This document shows positions 14,402-35,579 of a stretch of 64,000 nt of DNA, piece after piece. The stretch spans positions 1 to 64,000 of the forward strand of contig JAHJQZ010000074.1 of assembly GCA_018818925.1 (NCBI GenBank), in the 5' to 3' direction. Made by a program: the position numbers and the translations under genes. How positions within the stretch are numbered: the stretch's first letter is position 1; every line of letters starts with the position of its first letter. This DNA is from Alphaproteobacteria bacterium (GTDB taxonomy: Bacteria > Pseudomonadota > Alphaproteobacteria > Rhizobiales > Devosiaceae). The notes below the pieces were generated by a model that saw nothing but the letters and a program-made list of their open reading frames with translations, did no database searches and was not told the DNA's origin.

Positions 14402-14589
14402 GGCGCCATCGGATCGCCAAGGATGGCGGCAGAAAGACGGGCGCCGGCTAGGAGGTGCGCTGCGTTTTTCGGGCCGTCCCGCCGGGCTAAACGGACATGG
14501 CGGACAATCAGGCGCGCGGCATGAGGTGGTTCGACCCGCTCGCTTCCATAAAATCGGCTCCGCCTTGGGTGCGAGCCGGGGAGGAAAAC

Positions 14590-15615: not shown

Positions 15616-15653
15616 TCGCAACCTGCCTGTGACAGAGGCAAGACCTGAAATCG

Positions 15654-15681
15654 AGGGGCGGCCTGCGGGTCGCCCCTTTTT
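15654..15681 (+). terminator. Attenuating terminator between frcB and frcC
   Basis: AGGGGCGGCC (15654-15663) pairs with GGTCGCCCCT (15668-15677), with one G-U pair and a TGCG loop, followed by T residues to 15681. It sits 38 bp after the frcB stop and 13 bp before frcC. This fits partial termination that favours binding-protein expression. Confidence 0.75.
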
Positions 15682-15694
15682 GGGAGTGGGGGGA

Positions 15695-17583: not shown

Positions 17584-17623
17584 GATCAAGCCGGGCCGCA
17601 AGGGCCCGTTGGGAGCGTGTGAC

Positions 17624-18406
17624 ATGGACATGGGTCTTTCGGGCAAGCTGGCGGTGATCACTGGCGGCAGCGTCGGCATCGGGCTTGCGGTGGCGGAGGG
17701 TCTGGCTGCGGAAGGCTGCGCAATCCTCATCGCCGCGCGCGGTGCCGAACGCGTCGCCGACGTCGCCGCTGCGATTGCCGGCAGGTTCGCCGTCGAAGCA
17801 CGCGGCATCGCCTGCGACGTTGCTTCCACCGAGGGCTGCGACGCCCTGATCGCGGCGGCGGCGGAAATGGGCGGCGCCGATATTCTGATCAACAATGCCG
17901 GCACCGGCTCGAACGAGACCATCCAGGAGGCGGACGACGCCAAATGGACCTATTACTGGGAACTGCATGTCATGGCCGCCGTGCGGCTGGCGCGAGGCCT
18001 CGTTCCGCAGATGAAGAAAAACGGCGGCGGCGCCATTATTCACAATGCCTCGATCTGCGCCGTGCAGCCGCTGTGGTACGAGCCGATCTACAACGTCACC
18101 AAGGCGGCGCTGATGATGTTCTCAAAGACGCTCAGCAGCGAGGTGGTCGGCGACAACATCCGCGTCAACACCATCAATCCCGGTCTCGTGCTCACGCCCG
18201 ACTGGGTCAAGACGGCCAAACAGCTCGCCGGCGAGGACGGCTACAAGGCGCATCTGCAAGGCGTCGCCGACGAGGCCGGCGGCATGAAGCGCTTCGCCAC
18301 GCCCGAGGAACTGGCCAATTTCTTCGTCTTCCTTTGCTCGGACAAGGCGAGCTATTCGACCGGCTCCACCTATTTCGTCGATGGCGGCTGGCTGAGAACG
18401 GTTTAG
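17624..18406 (+). CDS. Short-chain dehydrogenase/reductase in the fructose locus
   Basis: A classical SDR of 260 residues. The cofactor site is TGGSVGIG (about residues 15-22), the NNAG motif is INNAGTG, and the catalytic serine (HNASICAV) precedes YNVTK. The C-terminus has the usual DGGWLRTV end. The ATG at 17624 has GGGAGC 8 bases upstream. An acidic residue after the second beta strand is not obvious (RGAERV), so NADP cannot be excluded. Its position after frcA and before a sorbitol-type dehydrogenase suggests oxidation of a polyol or sugar feeding the fructose pool; the exact substrate is unknown. Confidence 0.85.
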   Translation: MDMGLSGKLAVITGGSVGIGLAVAEGLAAEGCAILIAARGAERVADVAAAIAGRFAVEARGIACDVASTEGCDALIAAAAEMGGADILINNAGTGSNETIQEADDAKWTYYWELHVMAAVRLARGLVPQMKKNGGGAIIHNASICAVQPLWYEPIYNVTKAALMMFSKTLSSEVVGDNIRVNTINPGLVLTPDWVKTAKQLAGEDGYKAHLQGVADEAGGMKRFATPEELANFFVFLCSDKASYSTGSTYFVDGGWLRTV

Positions 18407-18462
18407 CGCATCGACGGTCGCGCGACGCGCGATACAGTCGCAAACTTCGGAGAATAGAAACA

Positions 18463-19245
18463 ATGACCAGTCGTCCACGGCTTGCGGGCAAGACCGCGCT
18501 GATCACCGGCGCGGCGCGCGGCATCGGGCGCGCCTTTGCCGAGGCCTATTTGCGCGAAGGCGCCAGGGTGGCGATCGCCGACATCAATATCGATCGGGCA
18601 AGGCGGACCGCCGCCGAACTCGGCGATGCCGCCATTGCCGTCGACATGGATGTCACCCGTGAGGAGAGCATCGATGCCGGCGTGGCCGAGGCCGTCAAGA
18701 AGATGGGCCGCATCGACATCCTCATCAACAACGTCGCCCTGTTCACCGCCGGCGAAATCGTCGACATCGCCCGCGCCGATTTCGACAGGGTCTTTGCCGT
18801 CAATGTCGGCGGCGTGCTGTTCACCCTGCAAGCAGTGGCCAAACACATGATCGAGCGTGGCGGCGGCGGCAAGATCATCAACATGGCGAGCCAGGCTGGC
18901 CGTCGCGGCGAGGCGCTGGTCGCGGTCTATTGCGCCAGCAAGGCTGCCGTCATTTCACTGACCCAGTCGGCCGGGCTCAACCTCATCAAGTACGGCATCA
19001 ACGTCAACGCCATCGCGCCCGGCGTCGTCGACGGCGAGCACTGGGACGGCGTCGATGCCTTCTTCGCCAGGCTGGAGAACAAGGCCTCGGGCCAGAAGAA
19101 AAAGGAAGTCGGCCAAAGCGTTCCCTTCGGCCGCATGGGCACGGCCGATGACCTTGTCGGCATGGCGATCTTCCTCGCCACCGCGGAAGCCGACTACATC
19201 GTTTCCCAGTGTTTCAACGTCGATGGCGGTCAGTGGATGAGCTAA
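18463..19245 (+). CDS. smoS: Sorbitol (L-iditol/polyol) dehydrogenase, SDR family
   Basis: A 260-residue SDR with TGAARGIG, DINIDRAR (the aspartate after strand 2 favours NAD), NNVALF in place of NNAG, the catalytic serine in NMASQAGRRGEALVA, and YCASK. The run NAIAPGVVDGEHWDGVD and the end NVDGGQWMS closely resemble rhizobial SmoS/PolS sorbitol dehydrogenases, which oxidise sorbitol to fructose and often galactitol to tagatose. AGGA-like bases (CGGAGAAT) precede the ATG at 18463. Fructose made here would join the fructose imported by FrcBCA. The assignment is by recalled similarity; substrate preference is inferred. Confidence 0.85.
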   Translation: MTSRPRLAGKTALITGAARGIGRAFAEAYLREGARVAIADINIDRARRTAAELGDAAIAVDMDVTREESIDAGVAEAVKKMGRIDILINNVALFTAGEIVDIARADFDRVFAVNVGGVLFTLQAVAKHMIERGGGGKIINMASQAGRRGEALVAVYCASKAAVISLTQSAGLNLIKYGINVNAIAPGVVDGEHWDGVDAFFARLENKASGQKKKEVGQSVPFGRMGTADDLVGMAIFLATAEADYIVSQCFNVDGGQWMS

Positions 19246-19525: not shown

Positions 19526-19555
19526 AAAAAAAGGAGGCTGCCGAAGCAGCCTCCT
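19526..19555 (-). terminator. Strong intrinsic terminator of the rare-sugar ABC operon
   Basis: A perfect 10-bp stem (19532-19541 with 19546-19555) closes, on the minus strand, a TTCG tetraloop and is followed by seven T residues. It lies 24 bp beyond the stop of the binding-protein gene. On the plus strand the A-run precedes the hairpin, so it is expected to act mainly on the minus strand. Confidence 0.9.
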
Positions 19556-19578: not shown

Positions 19579-20652
19579 TCAATAGTCCGGGTTCTCGCGG
19601 AACGACGGGTCGTTGATGTCGTAGACGAAGGCACCCGCGTCGCGCTTGGCCATGTAGTCGTCATGGAAGAACGGCACGAGCTTCGAGCGGTCGATTGTGT
19701 CGGTGTAGAACGGAATGACCGAGACGAAGACCGCCTTCTTGTAGGGCTCGCCGGCGAAATAGGCCTTGATCTGCTGCGAAGCGATATCGGCCTCGAGCGT
19801 CGCGGTCTCGTTCACGTCCATCGTGGTGATGCCCTTCTCGACCCAATCCCACGACTTTTCCTTGCCGTTGGACGCGCCGATCCAGTAGTCGGACGGGTTG
19901 AGCCCGGCTTCCTCGAACGCCTGCAGCACGCCGGCCGCCATTTCGTCGTTATGGACATAGACGCCGTCGAACCCGTCAGGGCCGAGGCTGGTGATCGCGT
20001 CCTGCATCACCTTCTTGGCCGGATCGGCGAACCAGCCGCCGGAACCCCAGAACACGACCTGCAGGTCGGTGCCGCCGGCGCCCTTGACGCCGACATTCTC
20101 GGCAAGATTGCCGATGTCCTTGCCGGCTGCGGCGTAGGACTTGAGGAAGCCTTCGGTCTGGCCGGAGGCGGTACCCTGGCCGAGCTTGCCCTCGATCATC
20201 ACAAGCTTGGTGACGTCGTGCTTCATGGCGGACTCGCCGGCAACCTCGCCGATATAGACCCAGTCATAGCCGGCAAAGCCGCCGAGACCCGGTTCGTTGG
20301 GCGGATTGTGGGTCAGGTGGAACTCGGGAATGCCGGCGTCCGACGCCAGTTTCAGGGTCCGCGAGGTGGTTTCGGGCGAGTTCTGCACGACCAGCAGCGC
20401 ATCGACGCCCTGGGTGATGAAGTTCTCGACCGCCGAAATCTGCTCGGGCGCGGTGCCCTGGCCGACGACATCGAGCACGGTCCAGCCTTCGCGTTCGGCC
20501 AGGGTCTTGAAGACCTCGTAGCCGGCTTTGTAGAAGTCGTCCGACGCGTCCATATAGTAGCCGATGACCTTGTCTTCGGCCATGACGCCGGTAGCAAAAG
20601 CCATTGTTCCGATGGCCACGGCCGTCATCAGTTTGAGTGCTGTTCTCTTCAT
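19579..20652 (-). CDS. Sugar ABC transporter, periplasmic binding protein
   Basis: This type-I periplasmic binding protein (Peripla_BP_4 fold) has 357 residues and a signal peptide ending GVMAED (cleavage about residue 25). The mature N-terminus KVIGYYMDASDDFYKAGYEV is followed by GVDALLVVQNSPET and, in the C-lobe, VYVHNDEMAAGVLQAFEEAG. It differs from RbsB and FrcB at the sugar-contact loops, so the ligand cannot be named; the neighbouring epimerase and MocA dehydrogenase suggest a ketose, inositol or uncommon aldose. It is last in the operon, 42 bp after the permease, and followed by a strong terminator. Confidence 0.88.
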   Translation of the reverse strand: MKRTALKLMTAVAIGTMAFATGVMAEDKVIGYYMDASDDFYKAGYEVFKTLAEREGWTVLDVVGQGTAPEQISAVENFITQGVDALLVVQNSPETTSRTLKLASDAGIPEFHLTHNPPNEPGLGGFAGYDWVYIGEVAGESAMKHDVTKLVMIEGKLGQGTASGQTEGFLKSYAAAGKDIGNLAENVGVKGAGGTDLQVVFWGSGGWFADPAKKVMQDAITSLGPDGFDGVYVHNDEMAAGVLQAFEEAGLNPSDYWIGASNGKEKSWDWVEKGITTMDVNETATLEADIASQQIKAYFAGEPYKKAVFVSVIPFYTDTIDRSKLVPFFHDDYMAKRDAGAFVYDINDPSFRENPDY

Positions 20653-20694: not shown

Positions 20695-21846
20695 TCACAC
20701 GGGTGGGTTCTGCAGCTCTGCCTGCGGTTCCTGCTTTTTGTCGGCGCCTCCCTGTTTCGCCTGCGCCGCAGTGGCGCGTGCCTTCGCCTGTTCCCGCTTC
20801 AGGGTCCGGTAGTCGGAGATGCGCGACGAGATGTCGCCAGCCGAAACCGCGATGATGACGATGAGACCCTTGGCGAGGAATTGAACTTCGGACGGCAGGC
20901 GGAGCATGTTCATCGCGTTGGCGATGGATCCGAGGAACAGAACGCCGATCAGCGTCCCGACGATGTTCCCGCGGCCACCGGAAAGCGCCGTTCCGCCGAT
21001 CACGACCATGGCGATGGTGTCGATCTCCAGACCCTGGCCGAGTGTGATGATGCCGGTATTGATGCGCGCCAGCAGCATGGTGGCGCCGATGCCGACCAGG
21101 AGACCCTGGATGGCGAATACCGCGAGCCGCATGTTGGCGACGTCGATGCCGGCGAGGAACGCAGCGCGCGGATTGGTGCCGACCGCATAGATGCGCCGCC
21201 CGAACTTGGTGTAGGTCAGCGTCAGTCCGCCGATCAACGCGATCAGGAAGAAGACCAGCACATAGGGCGGCAGCCTGAGCACCAGGCCCGTGACCGGGTC
21301 GCGGGCGCCGTCGATGAGATTCATGGTCAGGAAGTCGAGCTCGCCCTTCATCACGACTTCGCGCGAATTGGATAAAAGGAGCGCGATGCCCTGGAACGAG
21401 ATCATGCCGCCGAGCGTGATGATGAACGGCTCGATCCGCGTCCGCGAGATGATGAAGCCCATGGCGGATTCGAGCACGACCGCCGCCGAGACGCCGAGTG
21501 CGATCGAGGGCACGACACCGAGGCCCCAGCGCGAGATGCCGAGCGAGACGACGATCGAGACCAGCGAGGCGAGCATGCCGACCGACAGGTCGATGCCGCC
21601 GGAGATCATCACCATGGTCATGGACACCGCAATGATGCCGGGCACCGCGACCTGCTGGAGGATGTTGAGTATGTTCACCGGGCTGATGAAGGTCGGATAG
21701 GCTGCAAAGCCCGTCGAGATCAGTTGCAGACCAACGATGATCACGACGAAACTCAGGAAGATCGACAGGACGGTCAGGTTCTCGTGCCGCTTGAACAGCG
21801 ACTCCTTGACTCCCGCCGCCGCGTTGGTGATTTCGCGCTTGCTCAC
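20695..21846 (-). CDS. Sugar ABC transporter, permease (RbsC-like)
   Basis: A 383-residue BPD_transp_2 permease with SGGIDLSVGMLASLVS and the cytoplasmic-loop region AMVVIGGTALSGGRGN. Membrane segments start after a cytoplasmic N-terminus of about 25 residues. The C-terminus carries an Ala/Gln/Lys-rich tail of about 35 residues beyond the last helix, longer than in RbsC. Its start overlaps the stop of the two-domain ATPase by 4 bases, so they are translationally coupled. It forms the membrane channel for the importer encoded by this operon. Confidence 0.9.
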   Translation of the reverse strand: MSKREITNAAAGVKESLFKRHENLTVLSIFLSFVVIIVGLQLISTGFAAYPTFISPVNILNILQQVAVPGIIAVSMTMVMISGGIDLSVGMLASLVSIVVSLGISRWGLGVVPSIALGVSAAVVLESAMGFIISRTRIEPFIITLGGMISFQGIALLLSNSREVVMKGELDFLTMNLIDGARDPVTGLVLRLPPYVLVFFLIALIGGLTLTYTKFGRRIYAVGTNPRAAFLAGIDVANMRLAVFAIQGLLVGIGATMLLARINTGIITLGQGLEIDTIAMVVIGGTALSGGRGNIVGTLIGVLFLGSIANAMNMLRLPSEVQFLAKGLIVIIAVSAGDISSRISDYRTLKREQAKARATAAQAKQGGADKKQEPQAELQNPPV

Positions 21847-23327
21847 TCTTTCTGATCTCCTATTGAGAGGGTGAGGATGGCCTCTTCGGTAATGTCCTCA
21901 CCGGTCAGCTCGCCCGCGATCTGCCCCTGCTTGAAAACGATCACGCGATCGCTCATCGAGATCACTTCGGGCATGTCGGACGAGACCATCAGGATGGCCT
22001 TGCCCTGCTTCAGCAGGTCGACCATGACCTTGTAGATTTCCTGCTTGGAGCCGACGTCGACGCCGCGGGACGGCTCGTCGAAGATGAAGATCTCGCCCCC
22101 GGTGTTGAACCATTTGCCGAGGACGACCTTCTGCTGGTTGCCACCGGACAGGTTGAGGACCTTGGTGCGGGCGGTTGGCGCCTTGATATTCAGGAGCTTG
22201 AGATATTTCTCGCCGGTGGCCAGATCGTCGGACGGCTTGACGATGATCTCGCTCGTGTTGACCATGTTGGCCACGGCGACATTGTCGGCGATGGACTTGT
22301 CAAGAAACAGGCCGGTGTTCTGCCGGTCCTCGGTAATGAAGCACATCTTGTTGCGGATCGCGGCCTTGGGGCTCGCATGGCGGACCTTCTTGCCGTCGAT
22401 CAGGATGTCGCCGTGAACGATCGGCGCCCCGCCGAACAGCACTTCCATGAGCTCGGACCGACCCGAGCCGACCATGCCGGCAATGCCGAGCACCTCGCCA
22501 CGATGAACGTCGAACGAGACGTTCCTGACGCCGTTGCCGGTGACATTGCGCACCTCAAGCGCGACCTTGCCGCGCGCGACATGCTCGCGTTCGTAGAAGG
22601 TCGAGGGATCGCGCCCGACCATGTCCTTGATCAGGGTCGACTTCGTGAGCCCGGTGATCGGGTGGACGCTGACCTTGCGTCCGTCGCGCAGCACGGTAGC
22701 CCGGTCGCCGATCTCGAAGACCTCATCGAGGTGGTGTGAGATGTAGATGACGCCGATGCCGTTCTGCCGGACGGTCCTGACGATCTCGAGCACCGTGTCG
22801 ATCTCCTTGGAGGAAAAGGACGCCGTCGGCTCGTCGAGGATGATCACGTTGGATTTGAAAAGAAGCGCCTTGGCGATCTCGACGATCTTTTGCTGGCCGC
22901 TCGTCAGGTGGCGCATCTTGATTTCGGGCGACAGGTCGCTCTTCAAATACCTGAGAACGCTTTCGGCTTGCTGGCGCATCTGCCGGCGCTGCTGCAATCC
23001 CCAGCGGGTGATCTCCGAGCCGGTGAAAATGTTCTCCGTAATGCTCAGATCATTGAAGACGATGTGTTCCTGATAGATGGTGTGAATGCCCATCTTCAGC
23101 GCCGAGTTCGGCGTCAGCGACACCTCGCGGCCGTCGAAATAGATTTTGCCGCCATCGTCCGGCTGATAGGCGCCGGAAAGGATCTTGATCAGCGTCGACT
23201 TGCCCGCGCCGTTCTCCCCACACAGGCAATGGACTTCACCCCGTTTGACATCGAACGAGATGTCCTCCAGTGCCCTGACACCGGGAAACGTCTTGGATAC
23301 GTGCGAAAGACGCAGAACTTCGTCCAT
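21843..23327 (-). CDS. Sugar ABC transporter, two-domain ATP-binding protein (RbsA/MglA-like)
   Basis: This 494-residue fused tandem ATPase has GENGAGKST, LTSGQQKIVEIAKAL and IILDEPTASF in its first half. In the second half, Walker A is degenerate (GMVGSGRSE) while LSGGNQQKVVLGKWF and FDEPSRGVDVGSK remain. Such asymmetry is normal in RbsA/MglA/XylG proteins, which hydrolyse ATP mainly in one half. The GTVL-type recognition loop is replaced by RDGRKVSVHPITGLTKSTL. It couples to the overlapping permease and lies 40 bp downstream of the MocA-type dehydrogenase gene. Confidence 0.92.
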   Translation of the reverse strand: MDEVLRLSHVSKTFPGVRALEDISFDVKRGEVHCLCGENGAGKSTLIKILSGAYQPDDGGKIYFDGREVSLTPNSALKMGIHTIYQEHIVFNDLSITENIFTGSEITRWGLQQRRQMRQQAESVLRYLKSDLSPEIKMRHLTSGQQKIVEIAKALLFKSNVIILDEPTASFSSKEIDTVLEIVRTVRQNGIGVIYISHHLDEVFEIGDRATVLRDGRKVSVHPITGLTKSTLIKDMVGRDPSTFYEREHVARGKVALEVRNVTGNGVRNVSFDVHRGEVLGIAGMVGSGRSELMEVLFGGAPIVHGDILIDGKKVRHASPKAAIRNKMCFITEDRQNTGLFLDKSIADNVAVANMVNTSEIIVKPSDDLATGEKYLKLLNIKAPTARTKVLNLSGGNQQKVVLGKWFNTGGEIFIFDEPSRGVDVGSKQEIYKVMVDLLKQGKAILMVSSDMPEVISMSDRVIVFKQGQIAGELTGEDITEEAILTLSIGDQKE

Positions 23328-23367: not shown

Positions 23368-24477
23368 TCAGCGCCTGGTGAAGTCGGGAATCTTGACGAT
23401 CTCGCCGCCCTTCAGGGCCGACTGGTGGGCGCAGATGCCGACCGAGGTCCAGTTGGCCGACTGCTCGACATTCGGGAACGGATCCCGGTCCTCGAGAAGG
23501 GCGTTGACGAACTCGTTGACCAGGTGCGGGTGCGAGCCGCCATGGCCGCCGCCCTGGATGAAGCTCAGATGGTCCTCGTCGACGATGCCGCGCGTAAATT
23601 TCTGGATTTCCTTGGGCAGCCTGTGCGCGAAGTCCGGCACCTCGACGCGCTCGGCGATCTCGGGTTCGGGTTTCTTGGCGGTATGGAGCACCGGGTTCTC
23701 GTCGGTGATGAGCTGCCACTCGAAGCTTTTCTTCGAGGCGTAGACGTCGATCGACTCGCGGTACTGGCGCGCGGTGTCCCAAAGGAACCGCCAGATATGC
23801 GCGGCAACATCGGAATCCTTAATCTTGATCTGGCACGATTCGACCGCGAACTTGGAACCGGAGCGGGAAGCGCATTCGTCGTTGATGGTGCCGGAACCGA
23901 AACAGGAGACATAGTCCGCCATGCCGTCGACCATGGCCATGAGCGGAGAAACGACATGGGTGGCATAGTGCATCGGCACCATGTCCTTCCAATAGTCGGG
24001 CCAACCTAGCATGTCCTGCGGATGGGACGCCTGCAGATACTGGATCTTGCCCAGCTCGCCCTTGTCGTAGAGCTCCTTGATGAACAGGTATTCGCGGGAA
24101 TAGACGACCGTTTCGGCCATCATGTACTTGAGCCCGGTTTCACGGACGAGGCCGACGATCTCCCCGGCTTCCTCGAGCGTTGTCGCCATCGGCACAGTGC
24201 ACATGACGTGCTTGCCGGCCTTCAGTGCGGCAATCGACTGCGGGGCATGGTCGGGGATCGGGCTGTTGATGTGGACGAAATCCACATTCGGGTCGGTCAG
24301 AACATCGCGGAAATCGGTGTAGCGCGTCTCGATGCCGAACTGGTCGCCGATCTTGTTGAGCTTGTCTCTGTTCCGCTGGCAGATCGCCGTGACCTCGGCT
24401 TTCGGATGCGCCTGATAAATCGGTATGAACTCCGCTCCGAAACCAAGCCCGATGAGTCCAACTCGTACCTTGTCCAT
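23368..24477 (-). CDS. Gfo/Idh/MocA-family oxidoreductase with altered EKP motif
   Basis: This 369-residue NAD(P)-dependent sugar dehydrogenase has an N-terminal Rossmann fold with GLIGLGFGAEFIP. The segment that normally reads EKP(L/I)A reads CTVPMATTLEE, so the usual cofactor- and substrate-contacting lysine is absent. The C-terminal alpha/beta domain has HPQDMLGWPDYWKD and GGGHGGSHPHLVNEFVNA, glycine/histidine-rich loops seen in some MocA subfamilies. It is the first gene after the regulatory region carrying the 31-bp motif and the promoter-proximal gene of the ABC operon. It probably oxidises, or oxidises and re-reduces, the imported sugar. The reaction cannot be specified. Confidence 0.82.
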   Translation of the reverse strand: MDKVRVGLIGLGFGAEFIPIYQAHPKAEVTAICQRNRDKLNKIGDQFGIETRYTDFRDVLTDPNVDFVHINSPIPDHAPQSIAALKAGKHVMCTVPMATTLEEAGEIVGLVRETGLKYMMAETVVYSREYLFIKELYDKGELGKIQYLQASHPQDMLGWPDYWKDMVPMHYATHVVSPLMAMVDGMADYVSCFGSGTINDECASRSGSKFAVESCQIKIKDSDVAAHIWRFLWDTARQYRESIDVYASKKSFEWQLITDENPVLHTAKKPEPEIAERVEVPDFAHRLPKEIQKFTRGIVDEDHLSFIQGGGHGGSHPHLVNEFVNALLEDRDPFPNVEQSANWTSVGICAHQSALKGGEIVKIPDFTRR

Positions 24478-24532
24478 GATAGTTCCCCGGTTCTCCTTGC
24501 GCAGGAGTATTGGGGAGGGCGCGGAAAATGAG

Positions 24533-24563
24533 AATGAGCATTTGCGCTGGATTGTTGAGATAT
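24533..24563 (-). promoter_or_regulatory. Shared 31-bp motif upstream of the MocA/ABC operon
   Basis: Read on the plus strand it is AATGAGCATT, one variable base, GCGC, eight variable bases, then TGAGATAT. The identical arrangement with identical spacing occurs upstream of the epimerase gene at 26939-26969. This copy lies 56 bases before the dehydrogenase start, in a locally AT-rich patch. It is the likely binding site of the XylR-type regulator encoded between the two targets. Confidence 0.7.
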
Positions 24564-24704
24564 TTTCCCAATGCGCTGATGATCGGAATCAATGCTCTCA
24601 AATCGGAAAAAATACTGCCAAATATCAGAGTGAACATACCCAATTCAGCAGTTGCACTTGGTGCAACCGCTTGGGCAGGCCGGTCCGGACGGTGGCAGTT
24701 GGCG

Positions 24705-25883
24705 TCAGTCCGGCATCTTGGGGAAGGAGCGGCCCCGCACCTGGTCGCGGTATTCGCGCGGCGTCAGGCCCGTCTCCTTCTTGAAAAACACGCTCAGATA
24801 TTCGGGATGCTCGATACCGAGAACCTCGCTGATTTCGGAAAGTGACATGTCCGTCTCGAGCAGCAATTCCCGCACGGCGTTGGTGCGGACGCGCAGGATT
24901 TCCTGGTGCGGAGTCCGGTCGAGCGCCTTGCGGAAGCGCGCTTCGAGCACGCGCCGGGACATGGGAACAATGTCGAGCACGTCCTCGACACGGATGTTGT
25001 TGTGGGCGTTCTTGCGGATGAAGGCGATGGCCTCGGCGACATGGCTGTCGCCTACGGTCAGCACGTCGGTCGAGACGCGCTTGCGCACGCCAAGCGGCTC
25101 CATCGAGTGCTTTCGCCCGGAGAGCTTTTCGCCGCGCATCATGCGATCGAGGATTTCGGCGGCATAGGCGCCGGTCCGGAACGAATTGGGGATGATGCTC
25201 GACATCGAGGGCGTGGTGATCTCGCACAGCAACTCGTCATTGTCGACGCCGACGATGGCGATGTCCTCGGGCACCATGAAGCCGTAATAGCGGCAGATCT
25301 CGAGAAGCTGCTGGCCGCAGCCGTCATAACAGGCGAAAACACCGACCGGCTTGGGCAGGCTCTTCAGCCAGTCCCGAATCGCCTCGCGCTGGGTCCACCA
25401 GCGCACGCGCGGCTCCTTGCGCTGCGGCAGGTTGTAAATCTGCGACTTGATGATGTCGGGATGGCCGAGAATGCGCTCGAAGGCGTGCTGGCGCCAGATC
25501 GACCAGTTGTAGAACGGGTCGCCGAAAAAGGCGAAGTTCTGTAGCCCGCAGTCGCGCAGATGGTCGAGCGCCATGCGCGTGATCGCTTCGTCGTCGGTCT
25601 CGACCCAGGGAATGCCCTCGATCAGGCGGGCCGCGCTGACATCGACGGTCGGCACGTTCATGGTCTTGATGATCCGGGCCATCTGGTCGGTCTCGATGCG
25701 GGCGATGACGCCATCGAATGTCCAGTTGCCGGCAAAGGATTCGTCGATCTCGTGGCGCCCGTGCTCGGTGAGATAGAGCCGCCAGCCATGCCGGGTGCGG
25801 GCATAGTCGTGGATGCCGCGCAGGATGCCGCGGGCATAGCTGTTCGACGTTTCGATGATGAGCGCGACGTTTCTCTCGTCCAC
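24705..25883 (-). CDS. XylR-type (periplasmic-binding-fold + AraC) transcriptional regulator
   Basis: At 392 residues it matches the length of E. coli XylR. The N-terminal two-thirds is a LacI/PBP-like sugar sensor starting VALIIETSNSYARGILRGIHDYAR, with FACYDGCGQQLLEICRYYGFMVPEDIAIVGVDNDELLCE. The C-terminal 100 residues are an AraC-type double helix-turn-helix (IRVEDVLDIVPMSRRVLEAR, then MSLSEISEVLGIEHPEYLSV and KKETGLTPREYR). Such proteins sense a pentose or related sugar and activate adjacent uptake and catabolic genes. It lies between the epimerase gene (111 bp upstream) and the dehydrogenase/ABC genes, all on the minus strand. The ligand is unknown; xylose itself is not implied, since no xylA or xylB is present. 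Confidence 0.9.
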   Translation of the reverse strand: MDERNVALIIETSNSYARGILRGIHDYARTRHGWRLYLTEHGRHEIDESFAGNWTFDGVIARIETDQMARIIKTMNVPTVDVSAARLIEGIPWVETDDEAITRMALDHLRDCGLQNFAFFGDPFYNWSIWRQHAFERILGHPDIIKSQIYNLPQRKEPRVRWWTQREAIRDWLKSLPKPVGVFACYDGCGQQLLEICRYYGFMVPEDIAIVGVDNDELLCEITTPSMSSIIPNSFRTGAYAAEILDRMMRGEKLSGRKHSMEPLGVRKRVSTDVLTVGDSHVAEAIAFIRKNAHNNIRVEDVLDIVPMSRRVLEARFRKALDRTPHQEILRVRTNAVRELLLETDMSLSEISEVLGIEHPEYLSVFFKKETGLTPREYRDQVRGRSFPKMPD

Positions 25884-25994
25884 CTGCGGGGCCCCTCCCT
25901 TCGCCGATTGCCGAGTCGCGACGCATGATGGCGCCGCGTGAAGTTGAATTCTACACTCAAGTTCGCGCCGCTCCCCTGCGACACGATGCGCTCC

Positions 25995-26840
25995 TCAGCC
26001 GAGCAGGCCGCGCAGATATCTGGCGCCTCCGCTGGCCAGTTCGTCCTGCGACGGGGCGAGAGGCCGCCAGATCGAGGCCGCCTTGGCGATTTCGACCGCG
26101 CCGGGCGTGAAGGATTCGATGACGATGGCGCCATCGTAGCCCACCTGCTTGAGCGCATCGCGGATGCCGTTCCAGTCCTGGTGGCCGGTGCCGGGAATGC
26201 CCCGGTCGTTCTCGCAGGCGTGGAAATGGCCGAGCTTCCTGCCGGCGAGGCGGATGGCCTGGGGAATGCCTTTTTCCTCAATGTTGGCGTGGAAGGTGTC
26301 GATATGGACCTTGTAGGCCGGATGATCGACATCGTCGATGAGCTTCAGAGCCTGCTCGACCAGATTGATCATGTCGCTCTCGAAGCGGTTGAGCGGCTCC
26401 ACCCCGACCGTGACGCCGGCATCGCTCGCGACCTTGCCGATTTCCCTGAGGTTCTCGACGCACCAGGCCCATTCCTGCTTCTTCTCGTCCTCGGGCACGA
26501 GGCGTGTCTTGCCGACGGCCGAATAGACCGGACCGGAGAACAGCGTGCTGCCGACCGTTTCGGCGAAGCGGATGCCGGCGCGGATATAATCGGCGCCGTT
26601 CCGGCGGATCGCCGCATCGTCGCTCGAAATGTCGCGCGTCGGCCCGAAGGCGCCGCACACGGTAATCGACAGGCCGTTGTCCTCGGTCATCCGGCGCAAG
26701 AGCTCGGCGTCGATCAGCGCCGGATCATCGAGCGCGACCTCGATAACGTCGAATCCCATCTGCTTGATCTTGGGAATGAGGTCGAATTCGTTGGTCGTGA
26801 ACGGCGACGTCCACACCCAGGTGTTCACACCGATCTTCAT
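25995..26840 (-). CDS. Sugar-phosphate isomerase/epimerase, tagatose/psicose 3-epimerase-like
   Basis: A TIM-barrel protein of 281 residues (AP endonuclease 2-like). Expected metal ligands appear in VEPLNRFE, VHIDTFHANIEE, LGHFHACENDRGIPGTGH and VIESF. This pattern, especially DTFHxNIEE and HFHxxExxRxxPGxG, is that of D-tagatose/D-psicose 3-epimerases, which interconvert ketohexoses at C3. The start at 26840 was chosen because GGAGGAG lies 8 bases upstream; an ATG two codons earlier would be too close to it. It is promoter-proximal in the locus and carries the 31-bp motif 99 bases upstream. Inosose or hydroxypyruvate isomerases are alternative functions. Confidence 0.82.
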   Translation of the reverse strand: MKIGVNTWVWTSPFTTNEFDLIPKIKQMGFDVIEVALDDPALIDAELLRRMTEDNGLSITVCGAFGPTRDISSDDAAIRRNGADYIRAGIRFAETVGSTLFSGPVYSAVGKTRLVPEDEKKQEWAWCVENLREIGKVASDAGVTVGVEPLNRFESDMINLVEQALKLIDDVDHPAYKVHIDTFHANIEEKGIPQAIRLAGRKLGHFHACENDRGIPGTGHQDWNGIRDALKQVGYDGAIVIESFTPGAVEIAKAASIWRPLAPSQDELASGGARYLRGLLG

Positions 26841-26938
26841 TGTCATCTCCTCCAGGCGCCGCATTCGAAGGCGGCTGGTCGCCAATTCCGGCGCCCTTTT
26901 TCTTGCCTGTCAGTTTCGGACCGGCGTCTTGAAGCGTA

Positions 26939-26969
26939 AATGAGCATTCGCGCGAGAATTCTGAGATAT
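26939..26969 (-). promoter_or_regulatory. Shared 31-bp motif upstream of the epimerase gene
   Basis: Second copy of the AATGAGCATT / GCGC / N8 / TGAGATAT arrangement, matching the copy at 24533-24563 at 22 of the 23 defining positions with the same 8-base gap. It is 99 bases upstream of the epimerase start. Two copies in front of two target transcripts of one locus make it a good candidate operator for the XylR-type regulator. Confidence 0.7.
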
Positions 26970-27101
26970 CTGACCGGTGGATTTTGCGGGTGCGGGATCA
27001 AGAAACAGAAGTGGACTTGCCGCACGCCCGTTCAGCGCCTGCTCTCCTCCAGCGCCGCCAGCGACCGGGTCAGATCTTGGCCAGACAGTTGTTGAAATCA
27101 T

Positions 27102-27177
27102 TGGTGGGCCCGGCAGGACTCGAACCTGCAACCAGACCGTTATGAGCGGCCGGCTCTAACCGTTGAGCTACAGGCCC
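27102..27177 (-). tRNA. ileX: tRNA-Ile (CAU anticodon, AUA-decoding type)
   Basis: A 76-base cloverleaf with encoded CCA. The acceptor GGGCCTG pairs with CGGGCCC, the D stem is GCTC/GAGC, the anticodon stem is GGCCG/CGGTC with loop CTCATAA (anticodon at 142-144 of kb 27), and the T arm is GCAGG-TTCGAGT-CCTGC. The CAU anticodon with this body (G1-C72 pair and the Ile2-like D and T arms) fits the isoleucine tRNA whose C34 is converted to lysidine by TilS, rather than elongator Met. Elongator Met is the main alternative. Confidence 0.85.
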
Positions 27178-27496
27178 ATGCGGCGGCGGCGATGCGTTGC
27201 GCATCCTGCAGCCGGCCGACACGCGGTGGTACCGGCGCACCGCAATTTCGTCAAGCGTCGGTCGCGCGCGGCGATGCGGCGCGATGGGCCGGCTGGATCG
27301 GCACGGCCGCCGCACTTTGTGGGAAACGCCGGAGCGATTCGTGTCAGTTGTGTGACTGACGCTTTTGTTTCAATAGCTTGTGGAGAATCGTCGTTGCATG
27401 GGCAACGTCATGAAAGCGAAATCAAACCGACAAGAATGTGATATGCGGGCCAGCTAGGTGTCCAGCCTTCCCACAACCCTATCAGGGACATCTGCC
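27178..27496. other. Spacer upstream of ugpB
   Basis: 319 bases between tRNA-Ile and ugpB. The first part is GC-rich and featureless; the last 160 bases are less GC-rich and contain the inverted repeat GTCAG/CTGAC at 27343-27360. I could not find a convincing pair of CTGTCAT-like PhoB half-sites, although ugp operons are often phosphate-controlled. Confidence 0.4.
27343..27360 (+). promoter_or_regulatory. Inverted repeat upstream of ugpB, possible operator
   Basis: GTCAG at 27343-27347 and CTGAC at 27356-27360 are perfect inverted arms around 8 bases, 137 bp before the ugpB start. No regulator gene is adjacent, so this is only a candidate site. Confidence 0.3.
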
Positions 27497-28816
27497 ATGA
27501 AAAAAGCGATCATCGCGGCCAGCTTGATGCTGTCCGTTTCCGCCCACGCGGCCATTGCCGCCACCGAGATCGACTGGTGGCACGCCATGGGCGGCGAGCT
27601 CGGCACCAAGCTCGAGGAAATCGTTGCCGGCTACAATGCCGCGCAGGGCGACTATGTCGTCAAGCCGGTCTACAAGGGCTCCTATGCCGAGACCATGACC
27701 AGCGCCATCGCCGCCTTCCGCGCCGGCGAGCAGCCGGCCATCGTGCAGGTGTTCGAAGTCGGCACCGGCACCATGATGGCCGCCAAAGGCGCCATCTATC
27801 CGGTCTACCAGCTGATGGCCGACACCGGAGCCGATTTCGATCCCAACGCCTTTCTGCCCGCGGTCGTCGGCTACTACACCGACACCGAAGGCCACATGCT
27901 GTCGATGCCGTTCAATTCCTCGACCCCGATCTTTTACTACAACAAGAACGTGTTCAAGGCTGCCGGCCTCGACCCCGAAGTCGCGCCCAAGACCTGGGAA
28001 GAAGTGGAAGCCTTCTCCAACACGATCATGGAAACCGGCGCTGCCAAATGCGGCTTTACCACCGGCTGGATTTCCTGGGTGCAGCTCGAGAACTTCTCGG
28101 CCTGGCACAACCAGCCGATCGGCACGCTCGAGAACGGTTTCGGCGGTCTTGACACCGAACTGACCGTCAACGGCCCGGCCCAGGTCAAGCATTGGGAGAA
28201 CCTCAAGAAGTGGCAGGATTCCGGCGTCTTCCAGTATGGTGGCCCGGGTGGCGGTGCCGATGCTCCGCCCAAGTTCTATGCCCAGGAATGCGCCATGTAC
28301 ATGAACTCGTCGGCCTCGCGCGCCGGCGTCGTCGCCAACGCCAAGGATTTCGAGGTCGGCTACGGCATGCTGCCCTACTATTCCGACATCGAGGGCGCCC
28401 CGCAGAATTCGATCATCGGCGGCGCCACCCTGTGGGTGCTGCAGGGCCATTCGGACGAGGACTACAAGGCCGTGGCGGATTTCTTCTCCTACCTCTCCTC
28501 GCCGGAAGTGCAGGCCGACTGGCACCAGTTCTCCGGCTATCTGCCGATCACGCAGGCAGCCTACGAGCTTGGCCAGAGCCAGGGCTATTATGAAGCCAAT
28601 CCGGGTTCGGACGTGGCGATCAAGCAGATCACGCTCAACGCGCCGACGCCCAATTCCAAGGGTCTGCGTTTTGGCAATTACGTGCAGATCCGCGACGTCA
28701 TCGACGAGGAATTCCAGAACCTGCTCAACGGTTCCAAGACCGCTCAGGGCGCGCTCGATGCCCTGGTCGCTCGCGGCAACGACCTGATCCGCGATTTCCA
28801 GGCGGCAAATCAGTAA
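27497..28816 (+). CDS. ugpB: sn-Glycerol-3-phosphate ABC transporter, binding protein
   Basis: A cluster D binding protein of 439 residues with a signal peptide ([21 protein letters not shown], cleavage about residue 23). The mature start [15 protein letters not shown] contains the WWHAMGG signature of UgpB, and later [15 protein letters not shown] and [23 protein letters not shown] form the glycerophosphate pocket region. AGGGA precedes the ATG at 27497, preferred over an earlier ATG that would put 13 extra residues before the signal peptide. First gene of ugpBAEC, which imports glycerol-3-phosphate and glycerophosphodiesters as phosphate or carbon sources. Confidence 0.95.
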
Positions 28817-28830
28817 GAGTTGCTTTTTCG

Positions 28831-28857
28831 AAGGGTCCGGGCGAGTCTCGGACCCTT
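28831..28857 (+). terminator. Hairpin after ugpB
   Basis: AAGGGTCCG (28831-28839) pairs with CGGACCCTT (28849-28857) across 9 bases, starting 14 bp after the ugpB stop. The tail is TCCACC rather than a T-run, so it probably stabilises the ugpB message or causes partial termination rather than ending the operon. Confidence 0.6.
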
Positions 28858-28878
28858 TCCACCTTCGGTTGGCCGCTC

Positions 28879-29763
28879 ATGCAAACCAAGCGCACGGTGT
28901 TCGGCAGTCCGGTGCTGCCCTACCTGCTCGTCCTGCCGCAACTGGCGATCACGTTCGTTTTCTTCCTGTGGCCCGCTGGACAGGCGGTCTGGCAGTCGTT
29001 CTTGCGCGAAGACCCGTTCGGACTGAAGACGAGCTTTGTCTGGTTCGCCAATTACCAGAAGCTGTTCGTCGATCCGCAATATCTGTATTCGCTGCAGATC
29101 ACCGCGGTTTTCGCCCTGAGCGTGGCGGTGCTGTCGATCGGCTCGGCGCTGGTGCTGGCCGTCGCCGCTGACCGCATGATCCGCCTGTCGCAGACCTACA
29201 CGACGCTTCTGGTCTGGCCCTATGCGGTGGCGCCGGCGGTCGCGGGCGTGATGTGGTGGTTCATGTTCAACCCCACCATCGGCATCATGAGCTACATGCT
29301 CGAAATGCTCGGATATGACTGGAACCACTCGCTCAACCCCACAGACGCCATGATTCTTGTGGTCATCGCCGCGAGCTGGAAGCAGATATCCTACAATTTC
29401 CTGTTCTTTCTTGCCGGGCTGCAGGCCATTCCAGCTTCGCTCAACGAGGCGGCGGCCATCGACGGCGCCGGCCCGGTCAAGCGCTTCTTCACCATCGTCT
29501 TGCCCTTGCTGTCGCCGACGACGTTCTTCCTCGCCGTCGTCAATATGGTCTACGCCATGTTCGATACCTTCGCGGTCATCCATGCCACGACCCAGGGCGG
29601 ACCGTCGGGATCGACCGCGATCCTCGTCTACAAGGTGTTCCAGGACGGTTTCATCGGTTTGAAGCTCGGTTCGTCGGCGGCGCAGTCGGTCGTGCTGATG
29701 GTCATCGTCATCACCCTCACGGTCATCCAGTTCCGCTGGGTCGAGCGGCACGTGGAGTATTGA
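28879..29763 (+). CDS. ugpA: sn-Glycerol-3-phosphate ABC transporter, permease
   Basis: A 294-residue MalF-type permease with six membrane segments. The EAA loop is [24 protein letters not shown], which contacts the ATPase. The N-terminus [25 protein letters not shown] is typical of UgpA. The ribosome site before the ATG at 28879 is weak, with only GGTTGG nearby, and the preceding hairpin suggests lower expression than ugpB. A palindromic repeat begins immediately after its stop. Confidence 0.94.
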
Positions 29764-29809
29764 GCGATGCGTGAAAAAGTGGGAACCGGTTTTTCGCAAG
29801 AAGCATCGC
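29764..29809. repeat. Rhizobiales-type intergenic palindrome between ugpA and ugpE
   Basis: Outer arms GCGATGC (29764-29770) and GCATCGC (29803-29809) enclose an inner GTGAAAAA / TTTTTCGC pair around a GTGGGAACCGG core. The core motif, a run of A, GTGGGAACC, then G and a run of T, is a widespread intergenic palindrome in Rhizobiales genomes as I recall them. A second small palindrome (GGGATC/GATCCC) follows at 29823-29836. It forms the 113-bp gap inside the ugp operon. Confidence 0.7.
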
Positions 29810-29876
29810 GATCGCCAGAAGCGGGATCTCGATCCCCCTATTCGTCGCGTCGCAACGCCTGTCGGGGAGATGCCTG

Positions 29877-30725
29877 ATGGTCGAAAACCGTCCCTGGCTC
29901 AACATCTTCTCGCACATCGTTCTGATCCTCGGCGTGCTGACCGTCGCCTTTCCGGTCTATCTCGCCTTCATCGCCTCGACGCACGGGCCTGACGATTTCA
30001 TGTCCGGGGTCATGCCGGTCCTGCCCGGCCCGCACCTGATCGACAATTACTGGCAGATGCTCTCCCAGGGCGTGTCGACCTCCGGGGCGCCGCCGCTGTG
30101 GCGGATGATGTTCAATTCGCTGGTCATGGCGCTGATGATCGCCGTGGGCAAGATCGCCATCTCGATCCTTTCGGCCTTCGCCATGGTCTATTTCCGCTTT
30201 CCGCTGCGCGGCGTCGCCTTCTGGCTGATCTTCATCACGCTCATGCTGCCGGTCGAGGTCAGGATCATGCCGACCTTCAAGGTCGTCGCCGACCTGCACC
30301 TGCTCAATTCCTATGCCGGCCTGTCGATCCCGCTCATCGCCTCGGCGACGGCGACCTTCCTGTTCCGGCAGTTCTTCCTGACCGTACCCGACGAATTGAC
30401 CGAAGCCTCGCGCGTCGACGGGGCGACACCGATGATGTTCTTCCGCGATATTCTTCTGCCGCTGAGCCGGACCAATATCGCGGCCCTGTTCGTGATCCTG
30501 TTCATCTATGGCTGGAACCAGTATCTGTGGCCGCTGCTGATCACGACCGATCCCCAGTATTATACCGTCGTCATGGGCATCAAGCGCATGGCCGACGTCG
30601 CCGATGCCATACCGCAATGGAACGTGGTCATGGCGACGGTCATCCTCGCCATGCTGCCGCCGGTCGTGGTGGTGGTGGCGATGCAACGGCTCTTCGTCAA
30701 GGGCCTGGTCGAAACGGAGAAGTAA
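29877..30725 (+). CDS. ugpE: sn-Glycerol-3-phosphate ABC transporter, permease
   Basis: A 282-residue MalG-type permease with six membrane segments. The EAA loop is [23 protein letters not shown]. The C-terminus [16 protein letters not shown] is characteristic of UgpE. GGGGAGA lies upstream of the ATG at 29877. It pairs with UgpA to form the membrane pore and ends one base before the ATG of ugpC. Confidence 0.95.
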
Positions 30726-30726
30726 C

Positions 30727-31782
30727 ATGGCCGCTATCGAGCTCAGCGATGTGCGCAAGACATATCCCGGCGGCTTCGAGGCGGTCAAAGGGATCAGCCT
30801 GCCCATTCGCGACGGCGAATTCGTCGTCCTGGTCGGACCGTCGGGCTGCGGCAAATCGACCTTGCTGCGCATGATCGCCGGCCTCGAACGTATTACCTCC
30901 GGCACCGTCAAGATCGCCAATCGGGTGGTCAACAATCTCGAACCCATGCAGCGCGACATCGCCATGGTGTTCCAGAACTACGCGCTCTATCCGCATATGA
31001 CCGTGTTCCAGAACCTCGCCTATGGCCTCAAGAACCGCGGCATGGCCAAGTCCGAAATCGACATCCGTGTCGACGAGGTGGCGCGCATTCTCGAAATCGA
31101 GCCCTATCTCGCCCGCAAGCCGCGCGCCCTTTCCGGCGGCCAACGCCAGCGTGTCGCCATGGGCCGCGCCATCGTCCGGGAGCCGGCGGCCTTCCTGTTC
31201 GACGAGCCGCTCAGCAATCTCGACGCCAAGCTTCGCATCCAGATGCGCGGCGAGATCAAGCAATTGCAGAAGCGTCTCGGCACCACCTCGGTCTATGTCA
31301 CGCACGATCAGCTCGAGGCGATGACGCTGGCCGACCGGCTGGTTGTGCTCAACACTGGCGAAATCGAGCAGATCGGCACGCCGCTCGACATCTACCGCAG
31401 ACCGGCGACGACCTTTGTCGCCGCCTTCATCGGTTCGCCGGCGATGAATCTCGTGAAGGCGCACAGGCGCTCGGGAGCGGCCGTGTTCGGCGATGCGTCG
31501 CTGCCGATGGCCGATGACATCGCCAGCGGCATGGAGGTCACGGTCGGCGTCCGGCCCGAAGACCTGACGGTGGCGGGAACAAAAGACGCACTACGCCTGA
31601 CGCTCAAGATCGCCTATGTCGAGGAACTCGGAGCCACCCGACTCGTGCATGGAACGGTCGACGGGCAGAACCTGGTCGCGTCGGTTCCGGTGGACTGTCC
31701 GCTCGGCGAGACGCTCGAGGTGCATGCCGAGCCGTCGGCCCTGCATTTCTTCGATCCGCAGACCGGCAGGCGGCTGAACTAG
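30727..31782 (+). CDS. ugpC: sn-Glycerol-3-phosphate ABC transporter, ATP-binding protein
   Basis: A 351-residue MalK-type ATPase with [40 protein letters not shown] and the H-switch in VTHDQ. The C-terminal regulatory OB-like (TOBE) domain from about residue 240 contains [10 protein letters not shown] and ends [13 protein letters not shown]. The start [16 protein letters not shown] at 30727 sits just after the ugpE stop. It energises the UgpBAE importer. Relaxed MalK-like ATPases can serve more than one transporter, but position makes Ugp the clear partner. Confidence 0.95.
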
Positions 31783-33131: not shown

Positions 33132-35579
33132 TCAGCCGATGACGGCCTCGACCTTGACCGCACTCCGCCCGACCGGCGCCGGTGGCACCAGGTTGCCGGC
33201 GATCCGCTTGCCGTCGACGGTGAGGCCGACAGCATTGCCGGGACCCATGCGCACCACGGAAATGTCGTAGGTGACGCCGCGGAAGATACGTTTGGCCGCA
33301 AAGCCCTGCCAGCGCTCGGGAATGACCGGGGCGATCCGCAAGCCGTCATATTCCGGCCTGATGCCGAAAATCCACTGGGTGACGGCATAGTAGTTCCAGG
33401 CCGCCGTGCCGGTCAGCCAGGAATTCTTGGCCTCGCCATGGGTCGGGGCGTCGCGCCCGGCGATCATCTGGGCGTAAACATAGGGCTCGCAACGATGGGT
33501 GTCGGAAATCTGTTCGCGCACCGAAGGATTGATGCGCGAATAATAGTCGAAGGCCCTGTCGCCGTCGCCGAGCATGGCTTCGGCGATGATCACCCACGGG
33601 TTGTTGTGGCAGAAGATGCCGGCGTTTTCCTTGTAGCCGGGCGGATAGGTCGAGATCTCGCCATATTCGATGTAGTAGCGGGTATAGGCCGGCTGCTGCA
33701 GCACGATGCCGTGCGGCGTCGCCAGATGCCTGGCGACGCTGTCGAGCGCCTTGCGCGCCTTGCCGTCGTCAAGGCCGATGCCGGCGAGGACGCAATAGCC
33801 CTGCGGCTCGATGAAGATCTTGCCTTCCTCGCAGTCCCTTGATCCGATCGGCTTGCCGAAATCGTCATAGGCGCGGCGGAACCATTCGCCATCCCAGCCG
33901 TGTTCCAGAACCGTCCTCTTCATGTCGGCGGCGATCCGCCGGTATTTGCCGGCGTCGTCGGTCCTGCCGGCCGCCGCTGCGATGCCGGCCAGTTCGTTGG
34001 AGGCATGGACCATCAGCGCGCCGATGAAGACGGATTCGGCGGTCTTGCCGTCGGTCTTGCCCTTAAGTGTCTGGAAGGACTGGCCCGGTTCGTCCGAGAA
34101 GCAGTTGAGATTGAGGCAATCGTTCCAGTCGGCCTGGCCGATCAATGGCAGGCCGTGCGGGCCGAGCCGGTCGAGCGCAAACTGGATCGAACGCTCAAGA
34201 TGGGCGTAGAGCGGCGCCTCGGTGCCCTCGAGATTGTTGAACACCACCTTTTCGTCGAGAATGGCGAAATCGCCGGTTTCCCGGAGATATTGCGCAACGC
34301 CGATGACCAGCCAATGCGGATCGTCGTTGAAGCCGCCGCCGACGGAATCGTTCCCCTTCTTGGTCAGGGGCTGGTACTGGTGGTAAGCGCCACCGCTTTC
34401 AAGCTGGGTGGCGGCAAGTTCGAGAATGCGCTGGCGGGCGCGCTCGGGCACCATGTGGACGAAGCCGAGCAGATCCTGGTTGGAGTCGCGGAAGCCGAGC
34501 CCTCGGCCGATGCCGGATTCGAATGTCGAGGCGGAGCGCGACATGTTGAAGGTCGCCATGCACTGATAGGCGTTCCAGACATTGACCATGCGGTCGGCAT
34601 GCTGGTCGGGCGAGGTGACCCGATAGACGCCGAGGAGCCTGTCCCAGTGCTCGGCAAGCCTGGCGAAGGCCGCTTCGACAGTCTTTTCATCGAGGTATCT
34701 GGCGATAAGCGGCCTGACCCGCTTCTTGTTGATCGTCTGCGAGTTCGGCGGGTCGAACTTGTCGTCCCTCGGGTTCTCGAAATAGCCGAGCACGAAGACG
34801 ATCTGCCGTGACTCGCCGGGCTGCAACCTGACCTTGACGTGGTGCGAGCCGATCGGCGACCAGCCATGAGCGATGGAATTGTCCGACCTGCCGGTCTCGA
34901 CGGCGCGCGGCCTGTCCCAGCCGCGCCAGGGCCCGAGGAAGTTTTCGCGCTGGGTGTCGAAACCTTCGAGCGCCTCGGAACAGGCGAAATAGGCGAAATG
35001 GTCGCGACGCTCGCGGTATTCGGTCTTGTGGTAGATCGTGCTGGCCTCGACCTCGACCTGGCCGGTCGAGTAGTTGCGCTGGAAGTTGGTCATGTCGTCA
35101 TTGGCTTCCCACAGGCAGAATTCCACCGAGGAAAACACCGAGATATCGGCCTCGACCAGGCGCTCGTTGGTCACCGTGAGCTGCCAGATTTCGAGAGTCT
35201 CGCCGAGCGGCACGAAATAGCGGGTCGAGGAGGCGATACCGTCCTTTTTGGCCGAGATCGTCGAATAGCCCATGCCGTGCCGGCATTCGTAGGCATCGAG
35301 GTCGGATTGCGTCGGCATCCAGGACGGTGACCAGTATTCGGTCGTCTCGTTGTCGCGCAAATAGATGTAGCGGCCGCCGAAATCCATCGGCACGTTGTTG
35401 TAGCGGCCGCGGGTCAGCCGGCGCATGCGCGCGTCGCGGTAATAGGAATAGCCGCCGCCGGTGGCGCTGAGGATGCCAAAATAATCCTCGCAGCCGATAT
35501 AGTTGATCCAGGGCAAGGGCGTGTCCGGTCGCGTGATGACGTATTCACGGGCGCTGTCGTCGAAATGGCCGTATTTCAT
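33132..35579 (-). CDS. GH94 cellobiose phosphorylase-like enzyme
   Basis: 815 residues, the usual length for single-domain-set GH94 phosphorylases that convert a beta-1,4-glucobiose plus phosphate into alpha-glucose-1-phosphate and glucose. The N-terminal beta-sandwich begins MKYGHFDDSAREYVITRPDTPLPWINYIG. The (alpha/alpha)6 barrel has GQADWNDCLN with the probable general acid D487, and phosphate-site sequences around GYKENAGIFCHNNPW. The start at 35579 is favoured by AGGA five bases upstream and by matching the family N-terminus; the ATG 5 codons earlier lacks such a site. No signal peptide, so cytoplasmic. Cellodextrin or other beta-glucan disaccharides are possible substrates. A LacI-type operator lies upstream. 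Confidence 0.9.
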   Translation of the reverse strand: MKYGHFDDSAREYVITRPDTPLPWINYIGCEDYFGILSATGGGYSYYRDARMRRLTRGRYNNVPMDFGGRYIYLRDNETTEYWSPSWMPTQSDLDAYECRHGMGYSTISAKKDGIASSTRYFVPLGETLEIWQLTVTNERLVEADISVFSSVEFCLWEANDDMTNFQRNYSTGQVEVEASTIYHKTEYRERRDHFAYFACSEALEGFDTQRENFLGPWRGWDRPRAVETGRSDNSIAHGWSPIGSHHVKVRLQPGESRQIVFVLGYFENPRDDKFDPPNSQTINKKRVRPLIARYLDEKTVEAAFARLAEHWDRLLGVYRVTSPDQHADRMVNVWNAYQCMATFNMSRSASTFESGIGRGLGFRDSNQDLLGFVHMVPERARQRILELAATQLESGGAYHQYQPLTKKGNDSVGGGFNDDPHWLVIGVAQYLRETGDFAILDEKVVFNNLEGTEAPLYAHLERSIQFALDRLGPHGLPLIGQADWNDCLNLNCFSDEPGQSFQTLKGKTDGKTAESVFIGALMVHASNELAGIAAAAGRTDDAGKYRRIAADMKRTVLEHGWDGEWFRRAYDDFGKPIGSRDCEEGKIFIEPQGYCVLAGIGLDDGKARKALDSVARHLATPHGIVLQQPAYTRYYIEYGEISTYPPGYKENAGIFCHNNPWVIIAEAMLGDGDRAFDYYSRINPSVREQISDTHRCEPYVYAQMIAGRDAPTHGEAKNSWLTGTAAWNYYAVTQWIFGIRPEYDGLRIAPVIPERWQGFAAKRIFRGVTYDISVVRMGPGNAVGLTVDGKRIAGNLVPPAPVGRSAVKVEAVIG

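Follow-up and report, generated by a model that had tools for sequence, protein, structure and literature searches.

Paired candidate operators of a XylR-type regulator at a sugar-transport locus of an alphaproteobacterium

Sites and genes at the locus

The window analysed here is a stretch of 64,000 nucleotides (contig JAHJQZ010000074.1, positions 1 to 64,000, assembly GCA_018818925.1, Devosiaceae), in which two copies of one short site stand before two gene sets, with the gene of a XylR-type regulator encoded between them. A first-pass annotation had described the site as the pattern AATGAGCATT-Y-GCGC-N8-TGAGATAT, and both copies are indeed there with 0 mismatches, at 24533-24563 and 26939-26969, in equal orientation and spacing and on the plus strand as written. 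Both gene sets are on the minus strand, and in the direction of transcription the site reads ATATCTCA-N8-GCGCRAATGCTCATT.

The regulator (24705..25883, minus strand) combines a sensor region, matched by the Pfam-based tests as PBP1_XylR (38.1 bits, cut-off 27) and Peripla_BP_3 (97.4 bits, cut-off 26.5), with a C-terminal DNA-binding domain of the AraC family (HTH_18, 67.9 bits, cut-off 33.6). It aligns with Escherichia coli XylR (4fe7/4fe4) over residues 5-380, with an E-value of about 2e-56. These domains and the full-length match bear out the first-pass assignment of a XylR-type protein between the two copies. In the narrow sense of XylR, with genes for xylose isomerase, xylulokinase or xylose transport as targets, the name does not apply. 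The target genes differ: the sets behind the two sites encode an epimerase-like TIM barrel together with the regulator, and a MocA-family protein together with an ATP-binding cassette (ABC) transporter that scores below the xylose-model cut-offs.

The copy at 26939-26969 precedes a ketose 3-epimerase-like TIM barrel (25995..26840, minus strand; Pfam AP_endonuc_2), the first gene of a probable epimerase-regulator operon. This protein reaches 214.6 bits with the NCBIfam model for D-psicose 3-epimerase, below the equivalog cut-off of 300, and matches the D-psicose 3-epimerase structure 7x7w with an E-value of 7e-48. The regulator gene follows on the same strand after a gap of 111 base pairs (bp), so the epimerase promoter probably transcribes the regulator as well, judging from this arrangement.

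The copy at 24533-24563 precedes a gene for a protein of the Gfo/Idh/MocA superfamily (23368..24477, minus strand; Pfam GFO_IDH_MocA), termed a dehydrogenase in the first-pass annotation. It is followed on the same strand by genes that profile matches assign to a sugar ABC transporter: the ATP-binding protein (21843..23327), the permease (20695..21846) and the substrate-binding protein (19579..20652). A strong terminator-like hairpin lies at 19532-19555, past the last gene of this operon.

In terms of rarity, no further copy of the pattern was found in the window at up to three mismatches, and none of 100 dinucleotide shuffles contained two matches. The whole assembly (3,177,644 bases in 177 contigs, 96% complete) gave the same two matches only, again at up to three mismatches, and the reversed pattern used as a control gave 0 matches in the assembly at that tolerance. 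A sequence-only model of 26 sites (R1), built from the loci compared below, also retrieved just these two sites in the assembly, with 48.1 bits for the copy before the epimerase (copy 2) and 41.1 bits for the copy before the MocA-family gene (copy 1). The genome-wide search proposed in the first-pass annotation, for which many unrelated copies would have been a refutation, has therefore returned two.

Comparison with relatives shows that conservation extends about 6 bp upstream of the core (GGnnAn), giving a site of 37 bp, and that the "N8" is partly conserved, with A and then ATCT. The extended sites, both on the minus strand, span 24533..24569 for copy 1 (core 24533-24563) and 26939..26975 for copy 2 (core 26939-26969). 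Thirteen further loci have a site before the counterpart of the copy 1 gene, and 11 before that of the copy 2 gene.

Other sugar-related genes are present in the window. A plus-strand operon at 14497-19245 encodes another sugar ABC transporter along with two short-chain dehydrogenases, and the second of these scores above the NCBIfam cut-off for L-iditol 2-dehydrogenase; the operon converges on the regulated ABC operon. We considered it as a possible regulon member, and since there is no copy of the site at it we place it outside this regulon. Further along, a gene of the GH94 glycoside phosphorylase family (540 bits) lies at 33132-35690, near a sugar ABC transporter gene set at 27458-31782.

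Distribution of the regulator and its site

A scan of 84,980 species genomes for the regulator returned 18 loci, among them 12 orthologs at 66-90% identity. The hosts are Martelella radicis, a record titled Marinicella sp. W31, Pleomorphomonas oryzae, two Devosia, an Ancalomicrobiaceae metagenome-assembled genome (MAG), two Spirochaetaceae MAGs and four MAGs labelled Proteobacteria, Alphaproteobacteria or Hyphomicrobiales. One more ortholog was found in genome G332 (locus L048). Orthologs are nevertheless sparse: an even sample of the order has them in 6/397 genomes, the present one included, a sample of the class in 1/385, which is the present genome, and none occurs in 36 genomes of the same family plus 24 order-level relatives. 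There was no match on plasmids among 72,556 records.

This patchy distribution, together with 90% identity to the Martelella protein, suggests horizontal transfer. Upstream of the epimerase operator, at a distance of 132 bp, is the end of a tRNA-Met gene (27102-27177), which, given the same patchiness, may indicate the border of a transferred segment. In the two Spirochaetaceae-labelled MAGs (L012, 11157-12371, and L013) the regulator is 65-66% identical to that of the window, L012 also encodes a MocA protein 80% identical to the one here, and the operator is present. Their regulator and operator would reflect either transfer across phyla or mislabelling of the MAGs.

We compared 14 regulator loci, namely the window, L003-L014 and L048. 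Before footprinting, L015-L020 were dropped (23-34% identity, mostly partial), as were L047, L049, L050 and L051, duplicates of the L005-L008 records. The site is present before the Gfo/Idh/MocA-family gene in all 14 loci and before the epimerase in all 12 loci where an epimerase adjoins the regulator. In L012 and L013 no epimerase adjoins the regulator, and the L013 contig stops just past the start codon. In L014 (Devosia sp. A8/3-2) the epimerase copy has a 1-bp deletion and was for that reason excluded from the resulting alignment A1, which holds 26 sites. The same locus has frameshift-like breaks in the epimerase, regulator and MocA genes, and the breaks and the deletion would represent either decay or sequencing indels. 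In L009 we found a third copy of the site, before a gene on the other strand. This copy runs slightly into an open reading frame at 12405-13527, where an aldehyde-dehydrogenase C-terminal remnant is joined to alpha/beta-hydrolase-like sequence (named by eye).

Whole-genome scans with the 26-site model, in which 150 first-look candidates were scored per genome, gave 25 matches of at least 27 bits in the 13 genomes with the regulator, every one of them at the locus. The next-best match overall (18.2 bits, in the genome of L011) was rejected as a further regulon member, as it sits in a tetratricopeptide-repeat (TPR) gene and is attributed to chance. As 24 of the 25 matches are training sites, we turned to a leave-clade-out test. 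Here the site ranked top in all 14 loci, with gap-free sites scoring 25.1-57.7 bits and no other position above 14.1. A matrix trained on the other clades only gave the two Spirochaetaceae sites 30.9 and 25.1 bits. The gap-free test misses one site, the epimerase copy of L014 (-3.0 bits), on account of its deletion. The 14.1-bit match, at 7805 of L014, lies within the coding region of a transporter permease and was not taken as a site.

Genomes and loci without the regulator present a different picture. The best model match in the 60 relatives lacking an ortholog was 20.8 bits (G016), with no comparable site among them. Both that match and a 3-mismatch match in G033 are isolated, and as neither genome has a regulator ortholog, neither was accepted as a regulon member. 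The remote regulator matches L015-L020 have no site at up to six mismatches. Nor was a site found at four distant MocA homologs (46% identity) from genomes in which no regulator ortholog was found, two of which were checked over 15-16 kb.

Being rare in its genome, present with the orthologs and absent from the 60 relatives without one, the element stands as a specific candidate binding sequence for the adjacent regulator, much as the first-pass annotation had proposed. Both DNA-recognition segments of the regulator are near-invariant in the 12 aligned orthologs, while whole-protein identity falls to 65%, in the spirochaete orthologs. Another, unlinked regulator or a global factor could in principle act on the same operons through this motif, and the genome (G000) does encode further sugar regulators, seen as six weaker matches to this one. 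The motif, on the other hand, tracks this particular regulator across genera and into the Spirochaetaceae-labelled MAGs and is absent in relatives that lack it; two copies in the genome also argue against a global site. We regard an unlinked factor as very unlikely.

Half-sites, promoters and proposed mechanism

The full consensus, in the direction of transcription, is GGTnAAATATCTCAnAAATCTCGCGCGAATGCTCATT. It consists of two direct half-sites, G-N4-A-N3-CTCA, placed 21 bp apart, as found for dimeric activators of the AraC family. A shift of 21 was the best of 27 shifts, with a column permutation p of 0.009. In copy 1 the promoter-distal half-site lies at 24556..24568 and the promoter-proximal one at 24535..24547; in copy 2 they lie at 26962..26974 and 26941..26953, respectively, all on the minus strand and all defined by the invariant columns of alignment A1 and the 21-bp repeat. 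Of the 31-bp bipartite motif first described, the core is thus exact, with the form being a 37-bp tandem direct repeat instead of two different boxes.

Eleven loci have both sites free of gaps, and in these the two promoters were compared. Inside the site, 296/407 positions agree (73%), in contrast to 107/374 upstream, 54/231 in the spacer and 99/363 downstream (23-29%). The unlike upstream flanks rule out a duplicated segment. The identical core in both copies of the window could otherwise point to a recent duplication, to the end of a mobile element or to an RNA element such as an attenuator. Apart from the flanks, the copies are kept separately before the same two genes in these 11 loci, and the half-sites are direct and not inverted repeats. 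The site is also upstream of the putative -10 box and therefore outside the predicted transcript, contrary to what an RNA element would need. The probability we give to any of these origins is close to negligible.

The predicted promoter boxes, on the minus strand, stand in the same place behind both copies. A putative -35 box TTCTCA (24529..24534) has 2 bp in common with operator copy 1 and is followed, after a 17-bp spacer, by a putative -10 box AATACT (24506..24511). Copy 2 likewise shares 2 bp with a putative -35 box TTTACG (26935..26940), with a putative -10 box GAAACT (26912..26917) after a 17-bp spacer. The register is largely fixed over the 26 sites, with A at column 54 in 22/26 and T at column 58 in 25/26. 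A proximal half-site that abuts or overlaps the -35 box in a fixed register is the layout of a class II operator, here with predicted boxes.

Very probably, then, both copies serve as operators for the XylR-type regulator whose gene lies between them, and this regulator would activate both operons in a class II layout. In the mechanism that we infer from sequence comparison, a ligand-bound dimer of the regulator would place each AraC-type DNA-binding domain on one G-N4-A-N3-CTCA half-site. Bound beside the weak -35 box, it would recruit RNA polymerase; since the proximal half-site abuts that box with a 2-bp overlap, recruitment by an activator is the most likely outcome. Activation would turn on the epimerase gene and the regulator gene behind it, an order of genes that would give positive feedback from the epimerase promoter, that is, positive autoregulation. 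It would also turn on the MocA-family gene with the sugar ABC transporter, and the likely ligand is a sugar, or a derivative of one, brought in by that transporter.

Many proteins with a sensor of the LacI/periplasmic-binding type are repressors. As the present regulator has such a sensor and 2 bp of its site fall within the -35 box, the same protein on the same sites could act mainly as a repressor that blocks RNA polymerase there and is released by ligand. The site lies upstream, though, overlapping the -35 box only at its end, and the weak boxes fit dependence on an activator. Among characterised proteins, the closest relative over the full length, E. coli XylR, acts as an activator according to excerpts of PMC8534289, and in an excerpt of PMC4514859 it reportedly does not bind its target DNA without xylose. 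We therefore consider repression unlikely, if less so than an unlinked factor.

Some observations weigh against activation by this regulator through a tandem class II site. The direct repeat is imperfect: at shift 21 only 6/16 overlapping consensus positions match, and in the 8-column test the runner-up is shift 9. In 4/26 promoters (two in L009, one each in L010 and L014) the -10-like box is 1 bp closer, and the epimerase promoter of L009 lacks a good -10 box. A generic sigma-70 scan reports no promoter at the predicted places, and the boxes match the consensus poorly; weak boxes and a silent scan are also what is expected of activator-dependent promoters. Furthermore, the regulator itself was the route to the loci that supplied 24 of the 26 training sites. 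Independent of that route are only the leave-clade-out test and the epimerase site of L014, which scores 27 bits from outside the training set.

With the regulator as activator of both operons, this orphan XylR-type protein would gain a precise operator of 37 bp with two defined half-sites and a complete regulon of two operons, conserved from Hyphomicrobiales to Spirochaetaceae-labelled MAGs. Its ligand could be screened directly with a two-promoter reporter, and the operator, of which no other copy was found in this genome, would be usable as a biosensor. We found no paper on this regulon or pathway among the open PubMed Central papers.

Substrate and comparison with known systems

The EKP motif, with its catalytic lysine, is a feature of the sugar dehydrogenases of the Gfo/Idh/MocA superfamily. 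The MocA-family protein lacks it and has CTVPM in its place, as do 12/12 aligned homologs, in contrast to the aligned DgpA proteins, which have EKP. Its C-terminal segment GGGHGGSHPHLVNEF aligns with a GH109 enzyme, with a shared GHGG segment. The predicted structure, of moderate confidence (mean predicted local distance difference test score, pLDDT, of 70.9), matches the superfamily in general. It fits inositol dehydrogenases, DgpA1, levoglucosan dehydrogenase and GH109 alike, and the fold therefore does not discriminate between activities. The protein may be a glycosidase- or lyase-like enzyme that uses nicotinamide adenine dinucleotide (NAD).

Without the usual catalytic lysine in this enzyme, the substrate may be something other than a plain rare sugar, and a glycoside or keto-sugar is a possible inducing substrate. 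Of the "dehydrogenase/ABC genes" announced behind copy 1, then, the ABC operon stands, and the first gene may not encode a plain dehydrogenase. The term "rare-sugar locus" was a guess from family resemblance and should be held loosely.

A broader and clearly speculative view, which we think is probably not right in full, would take the operator pair as the mark of a self-contained, horizontally moving regulon. This would comprise the regulator, the epimerase, the lysine-less MocA-family enzyme and usually the ABC transporter, and would serve a substrate new to XylR-type regulators. The MocA enzyme would then be glycosidase- or lyase-like and related to GH109, and the inducer would be a glycoside or 3-keto-sugar and not a free rare sugar.

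In terms of known systems, the closest in protein architecture is E. coli XylR, which has the same domain order, a LacI-like sensor followed by an AraC-type DNA-binding domain. According to the parts of PMC8534289 that deal with it, E. coli XylR is an activator of xylAB and of xylFGHR, the operon that contains its own gene, so that a transporter operon and its own gene are activated there too. Unlike that system, the present locus has no xylA or xylB. The recognition segments also differ, with SRRVLEARF and HPEYLSVFF here against SRSNLEKRF and SLQYFYSVF in E. coli XylR. Our site model found nothing in the E. coli xylA-xylF intergenic region, where its best score was -0.6 bits. This low maximum, the differing recognition segments and the target genes other than xylAB rule out that the site is the E. 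coli xylose operator.

For catabolic loci with a D-psicose or D-tagatose 3-epimerase, the likeness lies in the epimerase, which is closest to D-psicose 3-epimerase models and structures. What differs is its partners here: the MocA-family protein lacks the lysine, and none of the genes identified encodes a sugar kinase.

Finally, the dimeric activators of the AraC/XylS group (XylS, MekR, MtlR and AraC) likewise have two direct half-sites in tandem ahead of the -35 box. In excerpts of PMC4514859 the XylS and MekR sites are given as tandem repeats, whose unit we counted as 21 bp, and the MtlR site is said to span at least 37 bp. The half-site sequence is a different one here, and so is the sensor domain, which is LacI-like and of the XylR type. 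The type of switch is well known, and this operator with its regulon is a new instance of it.

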